A stretch of DNA of 33,945 nucleotides from a virus, in IMG/VR virus record IMGVR_UViG_3300038548_000128, positions 1 to 33,945 of that record; one strand, 5' to 3'. Shown one piece after another: positions 1 to 33,945 of the stretch (positions are counted from its first letter, which is position 1; every line of letters starts with the position of its first letter). Below the pieces are notes generated by a model, which saw nothing but the letters and a program-made list of their open reading frames with translations, had not been told where the DNA came from and did no database searches. A program made the translations under genes and the position numbers.

Positions 1-127
1 ATAGCAAACGGTAAACTTTCGCCTATAACCGCCGAACAAATAGACACCAAAAAGAAACAATCCGCCGAGGATAAAAAGGCTTGGAAAGAGATTTTTTCTT
101 TTATCCACGCTATGAACCGAGCCGGCC
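1..127. repeat. Direct terminal repeat, left copy (circularity mark)
   Basis: Bases 1-127 are identical to 33819-33945. The repeat lies inside an open reading frame that continues in phase from the right end to the left end. It is therefore best read as overlap left when a circular genome was assembled, not as a biological terminal repeat. A length of 127 is a common assembler word size, which fits this. The true circle is 33,818 bp. Confidence 0.93.
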
Positions 128-1413
128 GGGACTGGACTAAAACCGACGTATTAAACTTATGCGAGATACATTTAATATCTGACATAAAAGTAACTAACGC
201 TTTTACTAAAATCTACAAAGAAAATATAGAGGAGTTTGGGATAGACGATAAACCGGAGATCTACAAAGTTGAGGTTTGGCTACGTAAAAACTGGGACTTT
301 GCTAAGAATGAAATAACACAAACTACGGAGGCCAAAACTAAAGAGGAGAAAAATTTTGAGACTATAAACATAGACTCGATCTACAGGAAACTACAGCACG
401 TAGGTTTTAAATTTCCTTTCGACAAATTAAAGAGTTTATTTAAATCGGACTTTGTATCCCGGTATAATCCTTTTATAAATTATTTCGAGGGGCTCCCGGT
501 TTGGGACGGTAAAAAAGATTATATAGCGGAGTTGGCCGGTTACGTTACTGTAGAGGATCAAGACTTTTTTTTAACCCAGTTTAAAAAGGCGCTAGTACGC
601 TGTATAGGTTGCGGGCTGTATAGTCGAGAGAATCGTATAGTATTCGTATTAGTAGGGGAGAAACAATCTACAGGAAAAAGTACCTTTATCCGTTTCCTTA
701 ATCCTTTCGGCGCTAAATATTATACCGAGGCGCCGCTACACAATAATAAGGACTCCTCGTTTTCATTGGCTGAAAACTTTATCTATAACCTAGAGGAGTT
801 AGCCAGCCTAACAAACGTAGACGTTAATAGGTTAAAATCTATTATCTCGACGGCCAGCATAAAGGAGCGAAAGGCTTACGCTACGGACGCCTTAGAACAG
901 CCCCGGAGGGTTAATTTTTGGGGCTCCACTAATAAAAACGAATTTCTAACCGATACCGAAAATACGCGCTGGCTATGTTTTAACTTGTTAGATATGGACT
1001 GGGGCTATACTAAAAATGTAGATATACATAAGGTATGGGCTCAGGCCTTTGCACTTTATAAGGATCCAAAGTTTAGCGATCAGTTAACGAAATCGGAGGC
1101 CGAGGATCGAGATAGAAAAAATAAAGGATACGAGATTAACGATTACGAAAAAGAGTTAATTAAACGTCATTTTAAATATTGTGAAAGTAACGAGGGGGAG
1201 TTTTTCTCTAACGCCGATATACTGGAAATTTTAGAGGACGGTACCAAAAAATTAAACTCTAGATTTATCGGTAAAAATATGATACAATTAGGATTTGAGA
1301 GAGGAGTACGGAAAATAAATAATCATACCGTAAGGGGTTATTTCGCCAAAAGGACGGCCGAAAGTTATAAGGTAGATGATACAATAGTAAAGAAAAAAGT
1401 AAAACCTTTTTAA
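1..1413 (+). CDS. Primase-helicase, C-terminal part (VirE/D5-like), continued from 33051
   Basis: This is the distal 470 residues of a 726-residue protein whose start is at 33051, across the circle junction. The apparent ATG at 112 is internal. A helicase core of the VirE/D5-like superfamily III type is visible. The Walker A reads GEKQSTGKST (about residues 475-484 of the whole protein), an acidic Walker B region reads NLEEL, and GSTNKNEFLTD follows in the sensor position. The last 80 residues look like a winged-helix domain. With the primase-like N-terminal half it should open and prime the phage origin; no phage DNA polymerase is seen, so the host enzyme would extend. The gene ends just before the 59-residue gene at 1416 and the origin-like block at 1596. 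Family assignment is strong; origin recognition by this protein is inference. Confidence 0.9.
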   Translation: MANGKLSPITAEQIDTKKKQSAEDKKAWKEIFSFIHAMNRAGRDWTKTDVLNLCEIHLISDIKVTNAFTKIYKENIEEFGIDDKPEIYKVEVWLRKNWDFAKNEITQTTEAKTKEEKNFETINIDSIYRKLQHVGFKFPFDKLKSLFKSDFVSRYNPFINYFEGLPVWDGKKDYIAELAGYVTVEDQDFFLTQFKKALVRCIGCGLYSRENRIVFVLVGEKQSTGKSTFIRFLNPFGAKYYTEAPLHNNKDSSFSLAENFIYNLEELASLTNVDVNRLKSIISTASIKERKAYATDALEQPRRVNFWGSTNKNEFLTDTENTRWLCFNLLDMDWGYTKNVDIHKVWAQAFALYKDPKFSDQLTKSEAEDRDRKNKGYEINDYEKELIKRHFKYCESNEGEFFSNADILEILEDGTKKLNSRFIGKNMIQLGFERGVRKINNHTVRGYFAKRTAESYKVDDTIVKKKVKPF

Positions 1414-1415
1414 TA

Positions 1416-1595
1416 ATGGCTAAAAAAATAAAATTAGAATTAACGGAGCCTCAGTTTATTTGTTTAATAGACGTAATAGACACGGTTAGCGCTCTCGGAG
1501 GTACAGGCCGAGAGTTTACAATAGAACAAAATAAAAATGTTTTATTGCTAGACCGAATGTTAAAAAAGAACGGATACAAAAGAACGCATACCTAA
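1416..1595 (+). CDS. Small unknown protein, 59 aa
   Basis: The ATG follows the primase-helicase stop by two bases, so the two genes are almost certainly co-transcribed and translationally coupled. The product begins MAKKIKLELTEPQFICLIDV and ends in a basic KKNGYKRTHT tail. It is probably mostly helical with one Cys. I do not recognise a family. Its position between the replicative helicase and the repeat-rich non-coding block makes a replication accessory or DNA-binding role possible, but nothing in the sequence proves it. Confidence 0.7.
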   Translation: MAKKIKLELTEPQFICLIDVIDTVSALGGTGREFTIEQNKNVLLLDRMLKKNGYKRTHT

Positions 1596-1898
1596 ATGTA
1601 ACCCGGTTACGTTAAAAGTTACATTAAAAACGGATCTAACGTAACCGCTAAAGACTATATAGACACTATGAAAAATACCCCGGTTACATCAGTTACACTA
1701 AAAACGCTAAAACACTTTGTCTACAGTCTACAGCCTATACTATATACTATATATAATAATAATATTAATGTTTAATATTTAATGTAACTAATGTAACCTT
1801 AGTCCCTAGGTACTATAAAACCTACAAAAAAAGGTTACATTAGATAACGTAACCTAATGTAACTTAATGTAACTTTTAACTATTTAAAATCTAAATCA
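1596..1898. other. Candidate replication origin: GTAAC iterons flanking an AT-rich tract
   Basis: This 303-bp gap has no convincing ORF. It holds 12 copies of the 5-mer GTAAC or its complement, starting at 1598, 1606(-), 1618(-), 1641, 1683(-), 1692(-), 1784, 1793, 1834(-), 1849, 1859 and 1869. Many sit in a longer TAATGTAACC context. Six copies lie left and six right of an almost pure A/T stretch at about 1739-1783, which resembles a DNA-unwinding element. Iterons plus an AT-rich segment beside the replicative primase-helicase is the usual build of an iteron origin. A multi-site operator for the late genes that follow is the main alternative. Confidence 0.6.
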
Positions 1899-2543
1899 AT
1901 GGATAACAGCACTTTAACAGAATCGGAGGCAAAAATACAGGCGGATTGCTACTTATGGTTTCATAATAACTACGAGCATTTACGAGGGCTCCTTTATCAC
2001 GTACCAAACGGAGAAAAAAGAGACATACGTACAGCGATGAAATTAAAAGCTATGGGCGTCGTCCCGGGAGTCCCTGACGTACCGTTTCACTATAAAGGAA
2101 AATCCTATTTTTTCGAATTCAAAAAGCCTAAATCCGGTAAGGCCTCCAAAGAACAAAAGGCAATACACGACCGTTTGAGAGATCATAACTTTATAGTATG
2201 GATCCCGGAGACGCTAGAGACTTTCCAAAAAATAATTAAATCTATCATAGAGTACAAAGATCCTCTCTTTACAAATGGTACCACAAAGGAGGACTTTTAC
2301 TACAGATATAAAATTTTTGATTATCTTTATAAACTCGGAGACGCTGAGTTAGTTTTAATCTCCGATATTTGCGAGGAGGATAGCCGGCCTCGTTTTATAA
2401 ATATAGTATCCGAGTTTATGGACGAGAATTACGATTTATTAAATAAATTTGATTTACTCTTTACTCCGGACTTTAAAGCAATTTATAAACGAGTATACGG
2501 ATCGACTCAGGACATATTTTACAATGGAAAAAGAACAATCTAA
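1899..2543 (+). CDS. VRR-NUC domain nuclease
   Basis: Residues 1-110 match the VRR-NUC (PD-(D/E)xK) nuclease pattern. It has E10 in a TESEAKIQ helix, HVPNGEKRD at 34-42, a KAMGVVPGVPD motif ending at D60, then E73-F-K75 and Q86. D60, E73 and K75 are the expected metal-binding and catalytic residues. Phage members of this family are structure-specific endonucleases, thought to resolve branched DNA during replication or packaging. The roughly 100-residue C-terminal extension is acidic and helical, and I do not recognise it. The gene opens the packaging block directly after the origin-like region and precedes the small terminase. The ATG sits in an A/T-rich leader (AAATCTAAATCAATG). Confidence 0.88.
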   Translation: MDNSTLTESEAKIQADCYLWFHNNYEHLRGLLYHVPNGEKRDIRTAMKLKAMGVVPGVPDVPFHYKGKSYFFEFKKPKSGKASKEQKAIHDRLRDHNFIVWIPETLETFQKIIKSIIEYKDPLFTNGTTKEDFYYRYKIFDYLYKLGDAELVLISDICEEDSRPRFINIVSEFMDENYDLLNKFDLLFTPDFKAIYKRVYGSTQDIFYNGKRTI

Positions 2544-2558
2544 AGTAGACTTTTATAG

Positions 2559-2906
2559 ATGGATAGCGAGGGTAAGAAAACAGGAGGACGCCAAAAAGGC
2601 ACACCTAACAAAGATACTAAAGACATACGGGCTCTATTTAAAAACCTAGTAGAGGGTAATTTAAATAAACTACAGGGAGACATAGACGGACTGAAAGGAG
2701 TAGAGCGCGTAAAATATACGCTCGAAATGGCTAAATTTTGTATCCCTACTTTAAAAAGCGTAGACTATAAAGGAGACGTAGTAATAGAGGCTAAGCGCCG
2801 TATATCTTTCGTAGACAAAACAAAGGAACCGATTAAACCAATAATTAAAATAATTCAAAATGAAGAAATTAATTTTATCCCTCCTAGTAACGAGCCTATT
2901 TTTTAG
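2559..2906 (+). CDS. terS: Putative terminase small subunit
   Basis: The 115-residue protein begins MDSEGKKTGGRQKGTPNKDT. The GGRQKGTPNK stretch is typical of small terminase-like DNA-binding proteins in phages of Bacteroidetes and others. A helical region follows (about 25-75), then a C-terminal tail rich in Ile and Pro. TerS recognises phage DNA and recruits the large terminase to start packaging. The call rests on that motif and on the large terminase gene two positions downstream. The end overlaps the lipoprotein gene by 47 bases. An ATG at 2524 in another frame gives only 41 residues and is rejected. Confidence 0.72.
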   Translation: MDSEGKKTGGRQKGTPNKDTKDIRALFKNLVEGNLNKLQGDIDGLKGVERVKYTLEMAKFCIPTLKSVDYKGDVVIEAKRRISFVDKTKEPIKPIIKIIQNEEINFIPPSNEPIF

Positions 2907-32943: not shown

Positions 32944-33054
32944 ATGAAACTTTTTAAATCCGATAAACAGGAGATTAGATTTTATGTCATAGCGACGCCT
33001 ATAATATTAGTAGCGTATATAGTCCTAAGCGTTTTAAATAATATTGTATTATGA
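32944..33054 (+). CDS. Membrane mini-protein, 36 aa, coupled to the primase-helicase
   Basis: A basic/acidic start (MKLFKSDKQEIRF) and one membrane helix (YVIATPIILVAYIVLSVL). The stop TGA shares bases with the next ATG (ATGA at 33051), the classic mark of translational coupling. Coupling to the replication initiator suggests a dosage or membrane-location role, though nothing shows it directly. A weak TTTG plus TATATTTT promoter-like pair precedes it (32897-32923). Confidence 0.62.
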   Translation: MKLFKSDKQEIRFYVIATPIILVAYIVLSVLNNIVL

Positions 33055-33945
33055 GTAACAGCGTTACAGTATTCAAAAATATTAAACAGACTGAGGGAGG
33101 AGAGGACTTTTTATTATCCGACGTAATGGACGCCGTAAAGGGCGGGCATTGGAAAAAGAAAATAAATTATTATAGATCCCTACCGGAAAATAACGAGTCC
33201 GAAATAAAGGCAAAGAAAACCGCTAAAACGAGTCTACCTTATTTTACAGGATCCGGTACATTTTCGAAACGAAAGGACACCGGATTAAAAGCCCACTCCG
33301 GGAGACTTATACTGGATATAGATTACGTAGAGGATCCGGAGGAGGTTAAAAAAATGGTGGGCGCCGATCCGTTTACAGAGTACTGTTTTACCTCAGTCGG
33401 AGGGGAGGGAGTCGCTGTTATCGTAAAAATAGATCCGACTAGGCACCTCGAAAGCTGGAAAGCCCTTAGCGTATATTATAAAAATGCTTTCGGCCTCCCA
33501 GTCGATAAGGCTACAAAGGATCTAAGCCGGGCTCGTTTCGTATCCTACGATCCTAAATTAATCTATAACGAGAATTCTAGAGTATTTATATTACAGTCTA
33601 AAGCCGATACTATAAAAAACCGGTGCAAAAAATTAATAGTAGACGCTCCGTCCGGGGAGGTACATAATAATCTTATTAAATCCTCTCGACTTATGGGAGG
33701 TTACATAGCCGGAGGACTTATAGACGAGGCCGAGGCTGAGGAGTTTTTAGTAGATATAATGTCTAAAAAGGAGGGCGTAGTATCTATAGATATAGAGCGT
33801 AAGAAAATACAGGACGGAATAGCAAACGGTAAACTTTCGCCTATAACCGCCGAACAAATAGACACCAAAAAGAAACAATCCGCCGAGGATAAAAAGGCTT
33901 GGAAAGAGATTTTTTCTTTTATCCACGCTATGAACCGAGCCGGCC
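33051..33945 (+). CDS. Primase-helicase, N-terminal part (BT4734-like), continued at 1
   Basis: The 5' part of the 726-residue protein that continues at base 1. Residues 1-190 match the BT4734-like N-terminal domain found before VirE-type helicases: a SLPYFTGSGTF segment, LILDIDY (D-x-D, the archaeo-eukaryotic-type primase metal site), SVGGEGVAV, and LSRARFVSYDPKLIYN. The domain probably makes primers. The last 127 bases duplicate 1-127. The start ATG overlaps the stop of the 36-residue membrane gene. One protein carrying both priming and unwinding is usual for plasmid-like phage replication. Confidence 0.9.
   Translation, partial: MSNSVTVFKNIKQTEGGEDFLLSDVMDAVKGGHWKKKINYYRSLPENNESEIKAKKTAKTSLPYFTGSGTFSKRKDTGLKAHSGRLILDIDYVEDPEEVKKMVGADPFTEYCFTSVGGEGVAVIVKIDPTRHLESWKALSVYYKNAFGLPVDKATKDLSRARFVSYDPKLIYNENSRVFILQSKADTIKNRCKKLIVDAPSGEVHNNLIKSSRLMGGYIAGGLIDEAEAEEFLVDIMSKKEGVVSIDIERKKIQDGIANGKLSPITAEQIDTKKKQSAEDKKAWKEIFSFIHAMNRAG
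33819..33945. repeat. Direct terminal repeat, right copy
   Basis: Identical to 1-127. Removing one copy closes the circle at 33,818 bp with the primase-helicase frame intact (768 bases from 33051 to 33818, divisible by three). Confidence 0.93.

Follow-up and report, generated by a model that had tools for sequence, protein, structure and literature searches.

A putative replication origin of SaPI/PICI type, with two mirrored iteron arms, beside the primase-helicase gene of a tailed phage of Bacteroidota

We detected twelve short repeats, arranged as two six-site arms around an A/T-rich spacer, downstream of the primase-helicase gene in IMG/VR record IMGVR_UViG_3300038548_000128, whose full length of 33,945 nucleotides is referred to here as the window. 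This repeat region (Table 1) is very probably the replication origin of a phage, of the SaPI/PICI rep-ori type with a self-loading helicase. At the level of sequence, this reading is carried by the array itself, its mirror symmetry, a layout that is kept while the repeated word changes, the array's linkage to a helicase gene and the fact that this helicase is a homologue of SaPI Rep. Origins of this kind are already known, and the carriers of the array are best read as full-length tailed phages of Bacteroidota, i.e., Winoviridae and relatives. The preliminary description had proposed an iteron-type origin candidate with an unwinding tract beside the initiator gene, which fits all comparative evidence obtained here, both the unique density of the repeats and the layout kept in relatives.

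The preliminary description counted twelve GTAAC/GTTAC words flanking an A/T tract in a gap with no ORF, and we recovered the same twelve, six at 1598-1696 and six at 1784-1873, with no ORF of at least 50 amino acids within 1596-1898. Over the whole genome these words show no enrichment (91 found vs 80.6 expected), and their density at the array is unique, the next densest stretch elsewhere holding 4 in about 300 bp. Dinucleotide shuffles of the whole genome never gave more than 6 words in 303 bp vs the 12 at the array, and 5000 shuffles of the gap gave a mean of 1.79 and a maximum of 8. Since 11 of the 12 sites extend to a match of GTTAC[A/G][T/C][T/C]A, the true repeat unit is the 9-mer GTTACATTA and not a 5-bp word.

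Table 1. Coordinates of the array and of the surrounding genes in the window
Feature	Position	Strand	Remarks
Primase-helicase gene, 5' part, with BT4734-like N-terminal primase domain	33052..33818	+	PF08800, E 1e-19; runs across the circular join
VapE/D5-type SF3 helicase part of the initiator	1..1413	+	PF05272, E 7.4e-29
Helicase C-terminal winged-helix-like domain, proposed iteron reader	1126..1368	+	Model and covariation with the word
Origin region, two six-site iteron arms around an A/T-rich spacer	1596..1898	.	Putative
Left arm site 6, outermost, AAATGTAAC	1594..1602	-	
Left arm site 5, GTTACGTTA	1606..1614	+	
Left arm site 4, GTTACATTA	1618..1626	+	
Left arm reversed site	1637..1645	-	About 51 bp from the inner site
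Left inner pair, outer member, GTTACATCA	1683..1691	+	
Left inner pair, inner member, GTTACACTA	1692..1700	+	
Spacer between inner cores	1697..1783	.	87 bp, 79% A+T, A/T core 1741-1783; proposed unwinding element
Right inner pair, inner member, TAATGTAAC	1780..1788	-	
Right inner pair, outer member, TAATGTAAC	1789..1797	-	
Right arm reversed site	1834..1842	+	50 bp from the inner site
Right arm site 4, TAACGTAAC	1845..1853	-	
Right arm site 5, TAATGTAAC	1855..1863	-	
Right arm site 6, outermost, TAATGTAAC	1865..1873	-	
VRR-NUC-type nuclease gene adjoining the array	1899..2543	+	phrog_824/phrog_93; homologues annotated VRR-NUC
Presumed TerS	2559-2906		By position alone; adjoins TerL

The A/T-only tract and the mixed orientations described earlier held in part. 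The spacer between the arms is indeed A/T-rich, but its longest run of A and T alone is just 22 bp (1748-1769). Both orientations of the repeat occur, but not at random, as the arms are mirror images of each other and form a two-fold symmetric pair of six sites each. In each arm, an inner direct-repeat pair is aimed at the A/T tract, a single reversed site follows about 50 bp further out, and the outer sites come at steps of about 10 bp. Counted outward from the inner site, with GTTACATTA as forward, the offsets are 0+, 9+, 51-, 74+, 86+ and 94- in the left arm and, mirrored, 0+, 9+, 50-, 65+, 75+ and 85+ in the right arm, and sites within a group are spaced by about 8-12 bp in both arms. The left inner pair points right and the right one points left, so that they face each other across the spacer, and the mirror symmetry is broken solely by the outermost left site. 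Two other signals in the region were rejected, namely a match to Rfam fstAT, which at 20.5 bits lies below the cut-off of 72 and is taken as chance, and two terminator-like matches on the minus strand, which are a product of the inverted iterons and a T run. On the minus strand, the reversed right-arm site and the sites next to it (1834-1863) make up a hairpin with a T run behind it, a terminator-like element that is probably a side effect of the inverted iterons.

The first and last 127 bp of the record are identical, and the genome is therefore circular or circularly permuted, with a length of about 33,818 bp. After circularization, the initiator is a single primase-helicase ORF of 726 amino acids (33052-33818 joined to 1-1413). 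The array had been placed directly downstream of this gene, which is true for the close relatives examined, where it starts at the helicase stop, but in the window an ORF of 59 amino acids (1416-1595) intervenes. This ORF matches phrog_21778 (function unknown) and resembles an insertion between helicase and origin. We consider the 59-residue protein, which had been suggested as a binder of the repeats, improbable in that role because it has no homologue in any relative examined. The adjacent genes tested did not match any plasmid Rep family (WH1-WH2 initiators of the Rep_3/RepA type included) and matched VapE instead, and an iteron plasmid origin of the Rep_3/RepA type was rejected, there being no such initiator gene beside the iterons. 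The GC skew, to which the preliminary description had looked for a switch, was computed both overall and at third codon positions and does not switch at the array; by third-position skew, the best origin falls at 28.5-31.5 kb, with position 1750 in 19th place of 68. Since the skew follows gene direction, it is uninformative on the origin.

The homologous gap was examined in the Flavobacterium phages FPSV-S1, lotta8-1 and pippi8-1 and in IMG/VR contigs, and the helicases of the relatives carrying the array are 36-79% identical to that of the window. Close relatives keep the repeats as a layout, while the word itself differs in some and can be quite different, e.g., GGAACATTA, on the same metric. 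It is uniform inside each phage and varies between groups, being GTTAC in the window, L008, L009, L028, L004, L018 and L023, GGAAC in L005, L006, L011-L014, L016 and L017, GGACC in L015, TGACC in L007 and L082, GTTGCC in L086, GTGAAC in L088, L090 and L095, GTTGAC in L085, and TAGACA in L020 and L021. Chromosomal loci of Cyclobacterium, Algoriphagus, Dyadobacter, Larkinella and others carry TACTAC or TACTCG arrays, which begin at or just inside the 3' end of the helicase gene. When the arms of GTTAC phages were compared with those of GGAAC phages, 57% of the sites coincided (within 2 bp and in orientation), vs 11% for random arms (maximum 24%) and a mean of 10% for common shifts. We conclude from this coincidence that the scaffold is conserved while the word is replaced as a set, and this fixed scaffold with an exchangeable word is the most interesting part of our findings.

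Some arrays depart from this pattern. In L010 (1684-2022), two related words are mixed, GTTAC and GTATAC (GTTACATGA, GTATACATGA), possibly an origin caught between two specificities. The arrays of L020 and L021 have no inverted inner pair, and a small DnaA domain IV-like protein (PF08299) is encoded directly after the TAGACA array in both (L020 6875-7333, L021 5950-6366), which suggests that a second protein binds the origin or that there is a connection with the DnaA boxes of the host. Two chromosomal elements, of Algoriphagus (L042 5965-11087) and Larkinella (L060 4642-8275), carry a DnaG-like Toprim primase in addition to VapE and a TACTAC/TACTCG array. L042 also encodes a relaxase and L060 an integrase, and both elements are apparently mobile islands with the same replicon type.

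Of 76 non-identical VapE loci, 57 have their strongest 6-mer cluster between positions -80 and +400 relative to the helicase stop, vs 3.5 expected by position, in a scan that took in 8 of the 12 window sites given the stretch chosen. The link between array and VapE is not universal, because several VapE loci, including more distant ones, show no nearby array as their top cluster (L022, L025, L026, L091, L092, L094 and L102), and L007, L020, L082 and L095 have it several hundred bases farther downstream. Judged from these sequences, VapE is nevertheless the constant neighbour of the array, which follows the helicase and not the terminase. A VRR-NUC gene is, in the loci compared, a usual but not constant neighbour, as L023 has the array between VapE and a GP3-type small terminase, with no VRR-NUC beside it.

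Since the terminase genes sit 0.7-1.5 kb downstream, the array might instead be a packaging site (pac or cos) read by the small terminase. Packaging sites of tailed phages are often near terS and can hold repeats, and the presumed TerS gene of the window adjoins that of TerL (PF04466/PF17288). However, array and word do not track the terminase. Among the loci compared, only L008 and L009 have homologues of the window TerS and TerL, whereas the array is much more widespread among phages; the same word is found despite different terminases (window vs L010 and L004); L106, with a 47% identical TerL and without VapE, has no array; and no terminase was detected among the flanking genes examined of the chromosomal arrays beside VapE. 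These observations make a packaging site highly improbable. We give just as little weight to the array being an operator for a phage regulator, which would control the downstream nuclease-packaging operon or repress the helicase gene. The array does lie upstream of a transcribed block, its sites are phased direct repeats, and autoregulation of initiators at iterons is common in plasmids; yet promoter-like matches are at chance level (4 found vs 2.6 expected from shuffles), the downstream genes vary (VRR-NUC, TerS or Toprim primase) while array and layout stay with VapE, and no regulator gene was seen travelling with the array, the 59-residue ORF included. An additional regulatory role of the array beside its putative origin function may exist.

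The match to PF05272 and both the profile and the structure comparisons support that the initiator is an SF3 helicase of the D5/VapE type and a homologue of SaPI Rep. The model of helicase residues 1-470 (pLDDT 87.8) has as its best PDB match 7pds, PriRep1 (Foldseek E 6.9e-17; VIA Z 25.4), with an alignment over 374 residues, spanning 74 to 457, at an rmsd of 5.0, and scores well above NrS-1 (Z 15.4) and SaPI5 (Z 13.7). In a profile search of the PDB, 7pds_A was the sole sequence match (E 8.8e-12). The entry, which we take to be the SaPI1 protein, is titled "The structure of PriRep1 with dsDNA". In the C-terminal part of the model (376-456), three helices are followed by a hairpin, as in a winged helix; a Foldseek search with this domain alone gave nothing with E below 0.1, and winged-helix proteins and the P4 origin-binding domain appeared weakly.

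The same domain is the candidate reader of the repeats. Within the phage clade, sharing a word predicts extra identity of the C-terminal domain (32 of 2000 permutations, with words assigned by eye and phylogeny ignored), and the same test gave no effect for the ATPase (643/2000) or the middle domain (950/2000). L085, which has a different word, is 71% identical to the window in the ATPase and 28% in the C-terminal domain. Over all 57 arrays, on the other hand, the C-terminal domain and the ATPase correlate with the word about equally in a partial Mantel test (both about 0.25). The covariation within the phage clade is thus suggestive of a reader role for this domain, and not proof of it. An origin as proposed that is bound by something else, be it the primase domain, DnaA or another host factor, or a small protein, seems unlikely to us. 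The DnaA domain IV-like protein beside the array in L020 and L021 and the fusion of primase to helicase in the window point to such a binder, whereas the covariation with the word, confined in the phage clade to the C-terminal domain, argues for the helicase, and SaPI Rep and SCCmec Cch2 bind DNA through their C-terminal domains, according to the part of PMC7581432 on these proteins.

Reading the array as an origin bound by the helicase, we compared it with known replicons. Classical iteron plasmid and lambda-type origins likewise have direct-repeat binding sites beside an A/T-rich melting region. Their initiators are not helicases and load a separate helicase, unlike the initiator of the window, which is itself presumed to be a ring helicase, and it is the SaPI/PICI rep-ori replicon, not the classical iteron plasmid, that comes closest as a precedent. 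In SaPI/PICI origins, two iteron sets flank an A/T region immediately 3' of rep (PMC6092414 and, in the part concerned with these origins, PMC7581432), an organization that PMC6092414 stated to be found in no other known bacterial replicon. The same part of PMC7581432 describes the SaPI Rep helicase as acting, apparently in the form of two hexamers, on an iteron origin that directly follows its gene and is recognized by its C-terminal domain. The window resembles the pri-rep-ori modules of SaPI1 (PriRep1), SaPIbov1, SaPI5 and EcCICFT073 in combining a primase with a D5/VapE-type helicase, fused here as in some PICIs, in having repeats 3' of the helicase gene, immediately so in the 57 loci and after the 59-residue ORF in the window, and, following the definition in PMC6092414, in having six sites on each side of the spacer. 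It differs in its carrier, a full-length tailed phage of Bacteroidota with its own terminase and a BT4734-like primase domain. The window itself is therefore not a PICI, a possibility ruled out by its own large terminase in a 33.8-kb self-closing record, and kin such as lotta8-1 are autonomous lytic phages (PMC7077304). The comparison with SaPI/PICI covers layout and helicase.

Two further systems share parts of this organization. The noncoding origin of the Streptococcus thermophilus phage Sfi21 presumably adjoins a D5-like gene. This PER element is a 302-bp noncoding phage origin in the replication module (PMC6356513), comparable to the array region by description, and belongs to a Firmicute phage; noncoding origins of about 300 bp are known in S. 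thermophilus phages (PMC6356513). At the putative origin of SCCmec Cch2, downstream repeats with a 5-nt iteron core are specifically bound by the C-terminal domain of the helicase, as is proposed here, but the site consists of three direct iterons with a PolA-type primase and, in the part of PMC7581432 concerned, no two-arm layout is reported.

Because the window matches sequence features of the SaPI/PICI and Cch2 origins, we propose a theoretical scheme for initiation at this origin. The primase-helicase would bind the 9-bp iterons GTTACATTA via its C-terminal winged-helix domain, and the six sites of each arm would probably seat one helicase ring, a hexamer. The inner pairs would direct the rings towards the A/T-rich spacer, the presumed site of duplex melting, and the two rings would be loaded opposite each other and unwind bidirectionally, with the fused or neighbouring primase laying the first primers, so that replication in vivo would start here. 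Going further, we hypothesize, as a possibility of nearly even weight, that lytic phages and mobilizable islands of Bacteroidota share one type of replicon, with a fixed, helically phased scaffold of about 6+6 sites, a hexamer per arm and an exchangeable word. The winged helix would read a variable core (GTTAC, GGAAC, GTTGCC, GTGAAC or GTTGAC) before a constant ATTA tail, and word and reader would co-evolve and set replicon identity and incompatibility.

We found no description of a SaPI/PICI-type origin in Bacteroidota phages in the open-licence literature, and the terms "origin of replication" and "repeats" do not occur in the main text of the publication on lotta8-1 and pippi8-1 (PMC7077304). 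The layout occurs in full-length tailed phages, including the cultured lytic Flavobacterium phages lotta8-1 and pippi8-1 as well as FPSV-S1, and in chromosomal elements of Bacteroidota. The dozens of natural helicase/origin pairs with a common layout and differing words form a set for studying how a self-loading ring helicase recognizes its origin, and are also suited to the study of two-ring placement, while the arrays offer origins for vectors in Flavobacteriia.

Nearly all of the phage helicases, besides, end in Phe, in many cases in a Pro-Phe that polar or acidic residues precede (22 of the first 23 listed; e.g., ...EGDNPPF, ...NEENLPF and ...PPDQDPF). This tail is present in the window (1396-1413), L008-L023, L086 and L088, and most of the listed chromosomal homologues are without it. 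It resembles the tip of bacterial SSB, which docks host replication proteins, and may recruit host factors to the origin.
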